Under the pieces are notes generated by a model. It was not told the origin of the DNA and searched no databases. It worked only from the letters and a program-made list of their open reading frames with translations. Shown piece by piece: positions 45,477 to 52,411 of a stretch of 52,631 nt of DNA. Positions within the stretch are counted from its first letter, which is position 1. Each line of letters begins with the position of its first letter. The position numbers and the translations under genes are program-made. Source of the DNA: Bacilli bacterium (GTDB taxonomy: Bacteria > Bacillota_I > Bacilli_A > RF39 > UBA660); assembly GCA_017434825.1 (NCBI GenBank), contig JAFSGC010000013.1, forward strand, positions 1 through 52,631. Reading direction: 5' to 3'.

Positions 45477-46022
45477 TTAATTTGTAAACTCCTTTTCCCC
45501 CTCTTCTAACATTTTGGTAATTAAAAGTCCATATCCAGTTACAGGATTATCTACCACAACATGTGTTAAAACGCCTACAATTTGGTCATTTTGAATAATT
45601 GGCGATCCACTCATTCCTTGAACAACGCCGCCAGTTTTTTCTATCAAATTATTGTCAAGTATTTTAAAGACTATATTTTTAGTCTGACTATTTTCATTAA
45701 TGGATGTTATCTCAATATCAAAAGTTTGTACTGTTTCTTGATCTAGAACGGTTTTGATATATGCAGGGCCTATTTCAATATCCTTACTAACTTTTATTGG
45801 AGTTGCACTTGGCAGTTCATCTTCATAAATCCCAAATATCCCATACTTAGTATTTTTATATATTGTTCCGTATCGATTCTCGTAATTAAATGAAGCTAAC
45901 TTACTTCCTGGAACTCCAGGTTTACTTTTTTGAATGCCTGTAATTGTATTTTGAAATATTAGACCACTTTTTATTTCAACTATGCTATTGGTTTCTGTTT
46001 CACTAATTTCATGTCCTAAACA
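45477..46022 (-). pseudogene. spoIVB: spoIVB, 3' fragment (SpoIVB peptidase S55), split by mobile element
   Basis: The frame on the minus strand gives about 181 residues ending at TAA 45477-45479. It matches the C-terminal half of SpoIVB peptidase: LGHEISETET at the start (family: ALGHxISDxDT with the catalytic His), KPGVPGSKLASF, NTKYGIFG, GPAYIKTV, and GGVVQGMSGSPIIQND with the catalytic Ser, then VGVLTHVVVDNPVTGYG. SpoIVB is the serine protease that triggers processing of pro-sigma-K at the spore membrane. No in-frame start codon exists, and similarity stops just before LGH, about 20 bp from the recombinase stop. The transmembrane, PDZ and first peptidase part are missing from the window. 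No stop or frameshift is seen in the fragment. Confidence 0.9.
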
Positions 46023-46042
46023 TGATTCGCGAAGTAAAATTA
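46010..46042. other. Attachment-site junction of the integrated element
   Basis: SpoIVB-coding sequence ends and element sequence begins in this interval, between the codons of LGH and the recombinase stop (46040-46042). A crossover within or beside GTTTAGGACAT on the minus strand would restore the codons of the LGH motif. The other attachment site is beyond the right edge, so the core cannot be defined here. Confidence 0.65.
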
Positions 46043-47659
46043 AACTTTGAACTCTGCAAGTTCTTCTATATTAAACAGAACATCAATCTCATTATTTTCT
46101 CCCACATCAATTCTTTTTATTATTTGATGAATTAAATCTTGTGTAATTAATTCTGAATTAAGAAAACCATTTAATATATTCTTTATATCATTATATTTAT
46201 GTTTATCTTTATCTAATTTTTCATGTAATAAAGCAATATCTTTTTCTATCTTAGTTTGTTGCTCTCTAAATGTATCTAATTCCTTTGATTTTTTTTCAGA
46301 TAAAGTTTTATATATATTTAAATCTAAGTCTCCATTTAATTTATCTTCATATAGTTTCATCATAAATACTTCTGCTTTTTCTAATTCATTTTTATTTCTT
46401 CGAGATTGTAGTTCCTTTTCTCTTATTTTTTCTTGTAAGTTTTTATAATTATCTTTTATAAAAGATGGTGTATCTATTTTTTCAATATACTTTCTGGAAA
46501 TCATTTTAATATAACTTATTACTTGAGTTTCTAATTCATCATAATCAATATAATGTGGAGTACATACTTTATGCTTACTATATTTTTTATAAAAATTACA
46601 TACACCATTTCTTCCTTGTTCATGTTTCTTTGGATTCTTCCAAGCTATTGCAATTCTATGCTGACAATCCTTACAATGAAGTAGTTTTCCTAATAAATGT
46701 TTTTCACCAGGCAATCTTGTATATTTTTTTTGTGATAATTCCAACATTTTTTGAATTGATTCAAATACTTCTCTTGAAACAAGTGGTTCGTGAGTATCTT
46801 TAACTATAATCCAATCACTTCTATCATTTCTAATAGTTTTCTTTGATTTATAGCTTGCTTTCTTAATCTTACATTGTGTTAAATCACCCATATAGACTTC
46901 ATTTGTTAATATTCTTCTTACCATACCTGTTGTCCATATTTCACCAACTAAATCACTTATTCTTCTATCCTTACGAACTCTTTTACAATAAGCACCTGGT
47001 GTTATATATTTCTTTTCATTTAGAATATTTGCAATTTTAGTAGTACCTAAACCAGAATATGCTAGTTCAAAAATTTCTTTAACTATATATCCAGTTTGTT
47101 CATCTACTTCTAGATAATGTTTATCTTCTTTGTTTTTAACATATCCATAAGGAGCAAAACTTCCCATATATAGTCCTAATCTTTTCTTACTATTTAAATT
47201 ACTTTTAATTTTTCTAGAAATATCTGCACAATAAACATCATTATATGCTAATTTCCATAAAATTAAATCAACTGAATCATATTTTGAATCCCAATTATCA
47301 TTTATTGAAATGTATCTTATTTTATGTTCAGGAAAATACTTTTCAATATAATAACCAGTTTCTGTATGATCTCTTCCCAGTCTAGATAAATCCTTAGTGA
47401 TAACACAATCAACTAATCCAGCTTCAATATCTCTTATTAATTGATTCCAGCCATCTCTTTCAAAAGTTTGACCTGTTATACCATCATCGTAATAGTATCC
47501 TGTATTTATTATGTTTTTCTCATCACAAAATTGCTCAATTATTGTTCTTTGGGATGATATACTATTACTTTCCATAGAGAAATTTCTTTTATCTCTATCT
47601 TCATCAGATAAACGACCATATCCTTTTGATTTTTTTATATCTTCATATATTCTATTCAT
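46040..47659 (-). CDS. Large serine recombinase (TndX/TnpX-like)
   Basis: This 539-residue site-specific recombinase integrates or excises the element. The N-terminal resolvase domain (1-150) has Tyr14-x-Arg16-x-Ser18, the catalytic serine context YGRLSDED, and ITKDLSRLGRD. A recombinase domain (about 160-270) with GSFAPYGY is followed by a zinc ribbon (HCKDC about residue 338, later CNF...C) and a long coiled coil (about 395-500). The domain order and length fit the TndX/TnpX type of clostridial transposons. It ends about 20 bp from the spoIVB fragment, as usual for integrases adjacent to an attachment site, and is transcribed in the spoIVB direction. Its ribosome site GGAGGGAGG is very strong. 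All catalytic motifs appear intact. Confidence 0.95.
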   Translation of the reverse strand: MNRIYEDIKKSKGYGRLSDEDRDKRNFSMESNSISSQRTIIEQFCDEKNIINTGYYYDDGITGQTFERDGWNQLIRDIEAGLVDCVITKDLSRLGRDHTETGYYIEKYFPEHKIRYISINDNWDSKYDSVDLILWKLAYNDVYCADISRKIKSNLNSKKRLGLYMGSFAPYGYVKNKEDKHYLEVDEQTGYIVKEIFELAYSGLGTTKIANILNEKKYITPGAYCKRVRKDRRISDLVGEIWTTGMVRRILTNEVYMGDLTQCKIKKASYKSKKTIRNDRSDWIIVKDTHEPLVSREVFESIQKMLELSQKKYTRLPGEKHLLGKLLHCKDCQHRIAIAWKNPKKHEQGRNGVCNFYKKYSKHKVCTPHYIDYDELETQVISYIKMISRKYIEKIDTPSFIKDNYKNLQEKIREKELQSRRNKNELEKAEVFMMKLYEDKLNGDLDLNIYKTLSEKKSKELDTFREQQTKIEKDIALLHEKLDKDKHKYNDIKNILNGFLNSELITQDLIHQIIKRIDVGENNEIDVLFNIEELAEFKV

Positions 47660-48157: not shown

Positions 48158-48184
48158 ATAAAAAAAAGCATTTCTGCTCTTTAA
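48158..48184 (-). terminator. Terminator of the three-gene cargo operon
   Basis: A short AGCA-GAAA-TGCT hairpin extended by A-T pairs, with a T run on the minus strand, after the stop at 48201. Confidence 0.6.
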
Positions 48185-48200
48185 TCTATATTTATTTTAA

Positions 48201-48785
48201 TTAAAATTTTATATTGAAATCACATAATCCTTTTTTATAATTCTCTAAAAATCTATCTACTTTTAAAGTTAAATCTTTTCCTCTATATGTTTTATTAGAA
48301 AATAAAATCTTATTTTCTTTACATAAATCAAATAAACTGACTGAACATATTTGTTTTCTTATCCCATCCCAAACTTTATTAATTGGAATATCTATATTGT
48401 TTGCACATTTAGATGTACTAATATGATGAAAACTAAATTGAATATTATTAAAATCAAATATTAAACATTTTTTATCAGTTTTATCATATCCGAATGAAAG
48501 TTCATTAATATTTGTGTTAATTATTAAATTATCAAGAAATATTCCTATATTGTTTTTAAAATTATAAGAAATTTTAGAATCCTTTTGCTTAATATATGAA
48601 TTTAATAAATTTATTGAGGATAAAAATAATAAATAATCTCCTTGTTGCTTTAAACTTATTAAAGAAACATAACATAAAGCTTCAAAAGCTTTTTCATCAC
48701 TTACATTTTCTTTTTCTTGTGATTGATTATTTTTACAAAATTCATTCAGTTCTAGACAAAAATTATCAAATTGATTAATATCCAT
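48201..48785 (-). CDS. Element-borne protein of unknown function, 194 aa, third gene of cargo operon
   Basis: No family is recognised. The protein is soluble, with an N-terminal helical part (1-100) and a C-terminal part with FDFNNIQFSFHHIS, VWDGIRKQICSVSLFDLC and LKVDRFLENYKKG. It could be a nucleic-acid-related or immunity-type partner of the nuclease gene before it: the 4-nt gap between the two implies tight co-translation. Very low GC, as in the other element genes. A terminator follows. Confidence 0.65.
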   Translation of the reverse strand: MDINQFDNFCLELNEFCKNNQSQEKENVSDEKAFEALCYVSLISLKQQGDYLLFLSSINLLNSYIKQKDSKISYNFKNNIGIFLDNLIINTNINELSFGYDKTDKKCLIFDFNNIQFSFHHISTSKCANNIDIPINKVWDGIRKQICSVSLFDLCKENKILFSNKTYRGKDLTLKVDRFLENYKKGLCDFNIKF

Positions 48786-48789
48786 ATCT

Positions 48790-49707
48790 TTAACTTCCTA
48801 ATTTTTCAATCTCTTTTAGATTAAGTTTTTTCAATAATTTTTCTAGTCTTATTACTGAATTCATACATATTTCCATTTCACTTATATAGTTTGTAAATTC
48901 TTGAGTAAAATCCATTACTGGAACTAATAATCTTATTGAAACAGATTTATTTGTTATTTCTAAAGTCATATCTTCGTCTAAATAATCTTTTACTAAGTCA
49001 TATAATTCATAATATTTATTAGCCAATCCAGCAAATTCTAAATCCATATATCCTCTATCAGATTTATGTCTAATTTTTATTTTTTTTATAGGTGTATTGA
49101 AGATCGGCCAACTAGCTCTAGAACCTCTTGGACCATCAACTTTATTAATATTAAGTGACGGATAATTTATATTAATATAATGATAATAATTATCCCAAAA
49201 TAATGTAACATTTTGATTTTCTATTATTATATAACCTTTTTTCTTTTCTTCTATTGCTTGTTCTAATAAAGTTTTAGCATATAAATCCTCTTCAAATAAA
49301 CTAACTAATTCTTCATAAGAAATTTGATTTTCATATTTTTTTGCTTCTTCATTTGAATCAAGATATTCTTTAGGAGCTATAATAAAAACAAAATACTCTT
49401 CATATTCTTTATTTTTAATACCTTTATTTCCTCTTATATCATATCTTCCTCTTTGATTAGGCATCGCAATAGCATCAATTTTATCTTCAATTAGAAAAGC
49501 AATCTTTTTTGAACCATTATTTAAAATAACTGTTATATCACTTTCACCATTTTCATCCATTAATGAATGTTGTAAAGATTCTACCAGATAATTTTCAATT
49601 CCTATTTTAGACGAAAAATAATGACAAGTTTTATTTTCATTAACAAATTTATTAATCATTAATAAATCAATATCTCTTTCAAAAACTTTTTCCATATTAA
49701 TATTCAT
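48790..49707 (-). CDS. PD-(D/E)XK nuclease-like protein
   Basis: The start is put at ATG 49707, which has a GAGGTG ribosome site overlapping the upstream stop; a TTG four codons earlier is unlikely. The product has about 305 residues. An N-terminal domain has ENYLVESLQHSL, then GESDITV and FLIEDKID followed by QRGRYDI, the Asp...Glu-x-Lys...Gln pattern of the PD-(D/E)XK superfamily seen in restriction-like and other DNA nucleases. The C-terminal domain (about 160-305) is of unknown fold with KIRHKSDRGYMDLEF. Placed on a mobile element within a three-gene operon, it may be part of a defence or element-maintenance system. Confidence 0.72.
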   Translation of the reverse strand: MNINMEKVFERDIDLLMINKFVNENKTCHYFSSKIGIENYLVESLQHSLMDENGESDITVILNNGSKKIAFLIEDKIDAIAMPNQRGRYDIRGNKGIKNKEYEEYFVFIIAPKEYLDSNEEAKKYENQISYEELVSLFEEDLYAKTLLEQAIEEKKKGYIIIENQNVTLFWDNYYHYININYPSLNINKVDGPRGSRASWPIFNTPIKKIKIRHKSDRGYMDLEFAGLANKYYELYDLVKDYLDEDMTLEITNKSVSIRLLVPVMDFTQEFTNYISEMEICMNSVIRLEKLLKKLNLKEIEKLGS

Positions 49708-49715
49708 AAAACACC

Positions 49716-50345
49716 TCAATCATAAAAATAATTTTTTATATCTTTTTGACATCCTTTTTTTATTAAATCTTTATATAAACCATCTAAAATATTTACTAAA
49801 GGAATAATACATTTAGGACATTCATCATTATTCATGTAATAAAAGAAATTAAAACCTGTAATAGATAATTTTAAATTATCTTTCTTTATATAAAAATAAT
49901 CTTCGACTCCATCTAAAACTGACGGAAAAGGAATTTCTTTAATATTAAATACTTCTAGATTATTATTTACAATATTAATAAAATTTTTAATATCATAATC
50001 TTTAATTTCAAATAAATCTTCATCTAAAGAAGAATATTCAAGATTGTTTTCTTTTCTGTCATATATTCTAAGTGAAAATAATGTATTATTAAAAGGTCCT
50101 TTAAATGCTTTTATAACTCTATATTCAAATATTAAATCTTTATCATTCTCAAGATTAATTTCGCATTCACAATTATTACAATAATATTCTTTTGTATCAT
50201 CTAAGAATGGAAATATCTCTTCACATCCTCCTAATTTGATTAATCCTTTTTTAGCATAATCAAACATTTCAGAAGATGGCATTCCATATATTATTTCTAC
50301 CAATTCTTTTTTACTACATCTAGGACATATAATTTTTTTATACAT
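49716..50345 (-). CDS. Zinc-ribbon protein, first gene of cargo operon
   Basis: This 209-residue protein starts with CPRCSKKELVEI, then GMPSSEMFDYAKKG and LGGCEE, and CNNCECEI, the arrangement of a small zinc-ribbon family in which a CPxC...GGC...CxxC module is frequent in gut Firmicutes. The remaining 130 residues include another CPKC (about residue 180). It precedes the nuclease gene with the stop overlapping its ribosome site. A substrate- or partner-recognition role is possible but not shown. Ribosome site GGTGAT. Confidence 0.68.
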   Translation of the reverse strand: MYKKIICPRCSKKELVEIIYGMPSSEMFDYAKKGLIKLGGCEEIFPFLDDTKEYYCNNCECEINLENDKDLIFEYRVIKAFKGPFNNTLFSLRIYDRKENNLEYSSLDEDLFEIKDYDIKNFINIVNNNLEVFNIKEIPFPSVLDGVEDYFYIKKDNLKLSITGFNFFYYMNNDECPKCIIPLVNILDGLYKDLIKKGCQKDIKNYFYD

Positions 50346-50382: not shown

Positions 50383-50415
50383 TAAAAAAAGCAAATCTTA
50401 TTATGGATCTGCTTG
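50383..50415 (-). terminator. Terminator of the HTH-membrane operon
   Basis: Arms 50390-50397 and 50406-50413 form an 8-bp stem with one G-U pair and a T run on the minus strand. It separates the regulator operon from the nuclease operon. Confidence 0.75.
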
Positions 50416-50432: not shown

Positions 50433-50735
50433 TTATTTTTTTATTTTCTTTTTTATCAAATAACTGATAAAACTTAATATATTATAAATAATCACTAAAT
50501 CAATACAATTTCCCATATTAAATATCATATTAATTGGTATTAGAAATGATATTGATAAAAAAATTAAACTAATTAGTAGTTCTAATTTAAAATCAGTGCT
50601 GACTATTCCAAGTGCAATATACATAATCGGGAAGGCAATATATATACCATTCAATATATCTTTACCATCTCTCCATAAATATATTAGTAACAACATCAAC
50701 ATAGATGGAATAATAATTTTCAAAATTCTTTTCAT
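50433..50735 (-). CDS. Small integral membrane protein, 100 aa
   Basis: This protein contains three hydrophobic segments (about residues 5-20, 30-48 and 52-72, and a further one at 75-95), with few charges outside a Lys-rich C-terminus. No family is recognised. It follows the HTH-membrane gene by 16 nt, has GAGG as ribosome site and lies before a terminator, so it is the partner of that gene. Small membrane partners of HTH-membrane proteins may act in sensing, but no evidence is available. Confidence 0.6.
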   Translation of the reverse strand: MKRILKIIIPSMLMLLLIYLWRDGKDILNGIYIAFPIMYIALGIVSTDFKLELLISLIFLSISFLIPINMIFNMGNCIDLVIIYNILSFISYLIKKKIKK

Positions 50736-50751
50736 TTATTACCTCTTTTAA

Positions 50752-52302
50752 TTATTCATTATTATTTTCATACATAGATAATTGATTTTTTAAATTATTA
50801 ATTTCTTCTTTATATTCCCACTCTTTTTGAATATAGTTATCGATTTTTTGTTGTAACTCATTTATCTCTTTTTCATAAGAATTAATCGTATTTTGATGTT
50901 GAACTTCAATATCAGTATAATCTTTATAATTTTTCTTTAATATTTCAATATTTTCTTTTGTTGTATATACTTTAACATCTTGTAGTTGATTATTTATTGA
51001 AACAATTTTCTTATTATTAAAATTATTTATTACTTCTTTTATTATTTTAATTGGATTCTCACAACTACTCCACATATGAAATACTTCGTCAGATAATTCA
51101 GAATGATTTATTTCACAATATTTATTTATAGTATACTCTATCTTAATATTATCATTATTAGATTCAATATATTTTACTTCAGGATAATGATAACCAAAAA
51201 TTAAATTGTCTTTCATATCAATTTCCATATAATCTGTTTTTAATATACTTTTATCATTTTCTATATATTCAAAGTTTAATGCACCTACTATAACGAAACC
51301 AATTCCTACTCCGAACATGACAAGTGATATAATAAATGACCATATCATTTTCTTTTTATCATTTTTTCTATTAAATACAAAGTTTAATGAAAGTAATATC
51401 AATACTATATTTATAATTGCAGAAGATATTATTGCTAATAATAATCCTATAAAAACCAATCCAGTTTTAATTGCTAAAAAAGAAACTACAAATAAGCAAA
51501 ATAAAGATATTAAAGATGCAAATAATATTATCGAAAAACATAATACAAAGAATTTAATAAATCCCACAATTCCTTTAAACAAACCATTTATAAATTTATA
51601 TTCACTATGTTTAGGATCTCTAATTATAATTTTATCTTCATTCTTTTTAAAATATATTTTATTTTTCTTTTCCAACTTTTCTTCTTTCTCTAAATCTTCT
51701 GATAGCAAAGTTTCTTCTTTTGATTCATTAGAAGAATCTTTTTTTATCTTATCGTAATAATCTAAATATCTTGTTTTAAAGATATGCACCATTATTACAA
51801 CTGAACTTGTAATAGCAAATAAAATATATACAAAATTAAATATTGAACGCATAATAGCAAAAATTTTATCAGGCATAATATCAATCGTTGAATATAATAA
51901 ACTTTCTCCTACTGAACCAACAATTAAACAAATAATTATTAATATTATTCCTATAATAAGCTGTTCAAATAAACATTTACATTTACTTTTAAAACTCATA
52001 TTGCAAAATAAATTTATAGTGTTGGTAATAAAGTTCAAGAAATCTTCAATATATTTGTTAATATTCTTTTTACTTTCTTCTTCTCCTTTTACTTCTCTAA
52101 TATCTTTATGTAATAAATCATCAATATTCAAATTAAATTTTTCACATAAAGTAATTATTTTATCCATCTCTGGATATGCAACTGCCGATTCCCATTTTGA
52201 TATTGCTTGTCTTGAAACACCAAGTTCATCAGCAAGTTGTTCTTGTGAAAGATTATTGTCTTTTCTAATCTTTTTTAAATTTTCAGAAAACTTATTATTC
52301 AT
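50752..52302 (-). CDS. XRE-family regulator fused to membrane domain
   Basis: I start at ATG 52302, 8 bases after a perfect AGGAGG; an upstream in-frame extension of 35 residues covers the promoter and is rejected. The product has about 516 residues: an N-terminal Cro/C1 HTH (about 2-60, NLSQEQLADELGVSRQAISKWE), then five or six hydrophobic segments in two groups with a charged loop (about 185-225) between, and a C-terminal coiled coil (about 470-510). The HTH sequence is typical of regulators on mobile elements. It likely controls genes of the element or the small membrane partner, in response to membrane signals. Confidence 0.82.
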   Translation of the reverse strand: MNNKFSENLKKIRKDNNLSQEQLADELGVSRQAISKWESAVAYPEMDKIITLCEKFNLNIDDLLHKDIREVKGEEESKKNINKYIEDFLNFITNTINLFCNMSFKSKCKCLFEQLIIGIILIIICLIVGSVGESLLYSTIDIMPDKIFAIMRSIFNFVYILFAITSSVVIMVHIFKTRYLDYYDKIKKDSSNESKEETLLSEDLEKEEKLEKKNKIYFKKNEDKIIIRDPKHSEYKFINGLFKGIVGFIKFFVLCFSIILFASLISLFCLFVVSFLAIKTGLVFIGLLLAIISSAIINIVLILLSLNFVFNRKNDKKKMIWSFIISLVMFGVGIGFVIVGALNFEYIENDKSILKTDYMEIDMKDNLIFGYHYPEVKYIESNNDNIKIEYTINKYCEINHSELSDEVFHMWSSCENPIKIIKEVINNFNNKKIVSINNQLQDVKVYTTKENIEILKKNYKDYTDIEVQHQNTINSYEKEINELQQKIDNYIQKEWEYKEEINNLKNQLSMYENNNE

Positions 52303-52411
52303 TTTCTTTTCCCTCCTTTTCACCAACATTTTATAATTTTCTACTGGTAGCAGACCACCACTTTTTGGTTGTTTTTTGTTGAAAGTTGGTTGCAAGATAA
52401 AATTCATGTAT

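Follow-up and report, generated by a model that had tools for sequence, protein, structure and literature searches.

A candidate restriction-type nuclease with two companion genes on a serine-recombinase element that interrupts spoIVB in a Bacilli bacterium

Three genes lie almost end to end near one end of a contig from a Bacilli bacterium (JAFSGC010000013.1, assembly GCA_017434825.1), and the question that they raise is whether they constitute one system. An earlier note on this DNA had taken them so, as a compact operon of the kind that mobile elements often devote to defence against phages or plasmids. Within the window, by which we mean the whole stretch of 52,631 nucleotides that was analysed, the reading that we favour, at about an even chance, is a simpler one: a restriction-type nuclease, possibly anti-phage, is carried as cargo on a serine-recombinase element together with two passenger or accessory genes. 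The features of the operon are as follows.

49716..50345, minus strand: gene 1, 209 amino acids, with an N-terminal zinc ribbon of the CPxC..IYGMP..LGGC..CxxC type and a C-terminal region
48790..49707, minus strand: gene 2, 305 amino acids, predicted PD-(D/E)XK nuclease (E10, D57, E74-x-K76, Q85) with a C-terminal domain resembling YbjN and secretion chaperones
48201..48785, minus strand: gene 3, 194 amino acids, with a QFSFHH..W-GIRKQ signature
50389..50414, minus strand: intrinsic-terminator-like hairpin upstream of the operon, ending the preceding gene (50433-50735)
48163..48182, minus strand: weak A/T-rich hairpin with a T-run, downstream of gene 3

All three minus-strand reading frames are coding, since each has distant homologues. 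The nuclease would be 309 residues long if read from a TTG at 49719; its start is nevertheless probably the ATG at 49707, because a GAGGTG Shine-Dalgarno sequence lies 4 nt before this codon, overlapping the stop codon of gene 1, and because the N-termini of its relatives align from about the same point. The first junction is thus most likely an 8-nt gap, and the overlap described in the earlier note, which would need the TTG, gives way, while the 4 nt between the nuclease and gene 3 stand. Likewise, the description of an operon bounded by terminators on both sides holds well upstream, where the hairpin has nine pairs and a T-run and the terminator rule found one site against 0.3 expected, and poorly downstream, where the eight A/T-rich pairs fail the rule and fold only weakly better than shuffled sequences (z -1.8). 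The three genes are probably co-transcribed as one unit.

Gene 2 offers the firmest ground. D57, E74, K76 and Q85 are invariant in all 24 aligned nuclease sequences, and E10 is kept in 23, the exception (L037) having an N-terminal part that is read in the wrong frame. An AlphaFold model built from the alignment (mean pLDDT 89.7) places helices at residues 10-23 and 25-34, strands at 41-51, 54-63 and 68-75, a helix at 85-98 and a final strand at 104-111; residues 10-111 of the model thereby contain the alpha-beta-beta-beta-alpha-beta core of the PD-(D/E)XK superfamily. In the model, D57 falls within the strand 54-63 and E74-x-K76 at the end of the strand 68-75, which are the positions expected of the motif. 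When Foldseek matches were re-aligned, residues 4-145 superposed on the small subunit of R.BspD6I, Can2, FokI, MspJI, McrC and Cap4 with Z values of 5-7.6, although structural Z values below 8 are common even between unrelated folds. The nuclease-like character proposed in the earlier note is therefore borne out by homologues and modelled core alike, and we take gene 2 to encode a genuine PD-(D/E)XK nuclease, for which motif and model predict metal-dependent DNA cleavage. The remainder of the protein, residues 166-305, compares with ExsC (Z 7.6), YbjN (7.2) and SycT (6.9) over 110-118 residues, a range that is also seen for models without clear matches; the structure tentatively suggests that an alpha/beta fold like that of YbjN and the type III secretion chaperones forms a second domain. 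This second assignment is tentative owing to the Z values below 8, and the first is firmer as it draws on a motif as well as on structure. Searching the sequences in the PDB with a profile of the nuclease gave no match, nor did Foldseek find a full-length match to the nuclease among PDB and viral structures, the best viral one being A0A6J4EH71.

The two companions have a different distribution. The protein of gene 1 matches no Pfam family above the cut-off, and its C-terminal region is shared over its length with one relative only, from locus L031. This relative sits in a possible defence island (L031, 201-8494) made up of an Stk2-like kinase, a small protein, a KAP NTPase, PDC-S14 (DUF4357), the zinc-ribbon protein and a DUF4011 helicase. 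Relatives of gene 3 are chromosomal, outside defence contexts, and in two genomes are fused to ArsR-type regulators. When the ArsR part was kept in the profile, most matches were ArsR regulators; a trimmed profile was therefore used, and apart from L078 and L079, already seen with the longer profile, it gave relatives only in two genomes of one genus in the sample searched. At L078 (4286-4756) and L079 (4399-4878), the gene 3 relative immediately follows a methylated-DNA methyltransferase-like gene and converges with a DNA glycosylase-like gene, both enzyme names being a reading of the sequences rather than a profile result; these relatives could belong to an uncharacterised DNA-repair-associated family. 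A single-sequence structure prediction for gene 3 was uninformative (pLDDT 43).

Does the trio, then, recur as a unit? The profiles of the zinc-ribbon protein and of gene 3 were run over 2714 open reading frames at 25 nuclease loci from genomes, phage contigs and plasmids, and nothing better than E 0.026 was obtained. The trio as a recurring unit was rejected, there being no pairwise or triple association at these loci, and the three were never found together in the genome, phage and plasmid sets searched. The closest nuclease relative, which is 73% identical and lies on phage contigs between unrelated genes (L028, L029), lacks both partners. The proposal of the earlier note that the three genes form one system thus finds no echo in the sets searched, an outcome that the note itself had named as refuting its reading. 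The genes come from three separate families, each with contexts of its own, and unless the trio turns up again elsewhere it is most sensibly seen as cargo assembled locally. It could still be argued that the three genes make up a genuine system of three components, for defence or of a toxin-antitoxin-like kind, rare and unsampled elsewhere, whose zinc-ribbon and gene 3 proteins sense a trigger or restrain the nuclease. The tight spacing (8 and 4 nt), the genes' own ribosome-binding sites and the flanking hairpins would suit such an arrangement, as would the occurrence of the full-length zinc-ribbon relative in an island with the kinase, the NTPase, PDC-S14 and the helicase; yet the 25 loci, the partnerless close relative and the chromosomal setting of the gene 3 relatives all speak to the contrary, and we consider the idea unlikely. 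Its most specific form, a rare anti-phage or anti-plasmid system on the spoIVB-interrupting element in which the YGMP zinc-ribbon protein is the sensor, the PD-(D/E)XK/YbjN-like nuclease the effector and the QFSFHH-family protein the regulator, is a longer shot still; were it true, a sporulating cell would lose the system from its chromosome, provided that sporulation is when the element excises. Close spacing is not enough to define a system, and the nuclease travels without genes 1 and 3.

Relatives of the nuclease were found at 19 genome loci, on 3 viral contigs and in 9 plasmid records; there were none in the phage record collection, and in 193 genomes of the order to which the window belongs, the window's genome alone had one. 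Several have a restriction or candidate defence gene next to them. At L018 the neighbours are PDC-S11 and the R subunit of a type I restriction system; at L007, PDC-S02 with its Mrr domain; at L009 and L016, PDC-M46 genes; and at L004, a Fic protein and a type I methyltransferase. Ordinary genes flank many others (L005, L013, L015, L017). In an unbiased count, PADLOC matches at E<=1e-30 fell on about 9-12 of 69 genes within 2.5 kb of the nuclease relatives versus 2-3 of the 55 that lie beyond 4.5 kb at the same loci, the ranges reflecting overlapping PADLOC models, as the tool counts models and not proteins. The near list had been reduced from 79 to 69 genes by removing ten doubtful frames by hand before the PADLOC scan, and some neighbour tests that preceded the near/far count were hand-picked. 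The excess is borderline (one-sided Fisher p 0.01-0.13), so that a tendency of the relatives to adjoin restriction or candidate defence genes is suggestive.

Part of the same distribution points elsewhere. Relatives on phage contigs (L028-L030) lie within replication or packaging modules, and that of L012 adjoins a ParB/methyltransferase-like gene, as might be expected if the nuclease served the element or phages themselves, in replication, recombination or competition with other elements, or as a moron gene, rather than host defence. Most relatives, however, are outside recognisable phage modules and several are beside restriction systems, and we regard service to the element or to phages as possible, if on the doubtful side. 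On one of the phage contigs, the gene immediately upstream of the nuclease relative (L028, 4480-4980) codes for a second PD-(D/E)XK-like protein, with an ECKGK motif.

Under the favoured reading, that of restriction-type cargo, the three genes would be carried as a single unit on the serine-recombinase element, and the two-domain nuclease would come from a diffuse family that travels with phages, plasmids and defence islands. It would most likely act as an accessory restriction enzyme does and cut phage or plasmid DNA that enters the cell, both the DNA substrate and the anti-phage role being inferred; the N-terminal domain would form the metal-dependent cutting core, and the C-terminal domain may serve in dimerisation or in binding a target or partner. 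The zinc-ribbon and third proteins would be accessory or passenger genes recruited locally rather than conserved partners, and may bind nucleic acid or tune expression. Several points count against a restriction-type enzyme: the 6.6 kb of the element on the contig show no protective methyltransferase, the neighbour excess is borderline, many neighbours are ordinary, and the Pfam and PADLOC matches are below or near threshold. As for the suggestion of phage defence in the earlier note, the mobile element and the relatives in phages and beside restriction genes agree with it, while the weak PDC-S26 match and the uncertain excess leave it short of established.

The carrier itself merits attention, and two further features define where it begins.

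46040..47659, minus strand: serine recombinase of the element
45477..46022, minus strand: 3' part of spoIVB (Peptidase_S55 positions 31-210), where the element begins

The segment from about 46018 to the contig end at 52631 is compositionally foreign, as expected of an acquired element: its GC content is 22% against 30% in the rest of the window, where the lowest 2-kb stretch of host DNA has 25.6%. The end of the recombinase gene is 18 nt from the spoIVB remnant, which lacks a start codon and the first 30 positions of the S55 domain. In an alignment with intact genes, the interruption falls at the LGHE codons, within TTTAGGACATGA or adjacent to it. spoIVB is intact in a genome of the same genus (G028) and in most of the family, and its 5' part was not found anywhere in the assembly of the window's genome (G000); the contig ends inside the element, and the missing part either lies in a gap beyond that end or has been lost. 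A second apparently interrupted spoIVB, in genome G490, proved to be an artefact of runs of N. Also on the element is a gene for a 551-residue protein (50752-52407) that begins with a Cro/C1-type HTH and whose C-terminal part is hydrophobic and probably spans the membrane; it is possibly a regulator of the element, and its true start is likely downstream of the first ATG. Large serine recombinases abound in the family of the window's genome, where 71 of 108 genomes have one at E<=1e-30, with up to nine matches per genome.

With the other end of the element missing from the assembly, a close relative (L003) broken by a stop codon and the trio not recurrent, it might be supposed that the genes are passengers unrelated to one another on an element in decay, sharing no function and under no selection for activity. 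Against this, all three frames of the window are intact and the catalytic residues of the nuclease fully conserved, and we find such a scenario very improbable. The nuclease represents a well-defined, unnamed two-domain PD-(D/E)XK family of phages, plasmids and defence islands, which joins the nucleases that deserve a test for activity against phages.

It remains to set the locus beside known systems. The window nuclease shares the core fold and the D...ExK...Q motif with PDDEXK_4 (PF14281), and several of its relatives match that family at E 3e-4 to 1e-3, with up to 21.2 bits against a gathering cut-off of 22.3; the window nuclease itself remains below this cut-off at 11.4 bits (E 0.31) and has the additional C-terminal YbjN/secretion-chaperone-like domain. 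Its resemblance to PADLOC PDC-S26 is weak and runs across the catalytic stretch (E 0.0035, 14.5 bits; 1.5e-4 for the best relative), but it spans model positions 105-184 of 400, which is no confident full-length match. PDC-S11 (DUF4268) and the Mrr-type PDC-S02 are neighbours of nuclease relatives rather than homologues, and are absent from the window. The N-terminal domain of gene 1 is 35-52% identical, over 38-68 residues, to short zinc-ribbon proteins of the YGMP kind that phages and plasmids encode; these are mostly stand-alone proteins of 66-76 amino acids, whereas gene 1 adds about 140 C-terminal residues. Finally, intervening elements are known in sporulation genes, among them skin, SPbeta in spsM and gin in gerE (PMC4191935, PMC5595907), and no report of spoIVB as an insertion target was found in the open-access literature searched. 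Like skin, SPbeta and gin, the AT-rich element of the window interrupts a sporulation gene, and by this analogy it is a candidate skin-like intervening element with putative excision.
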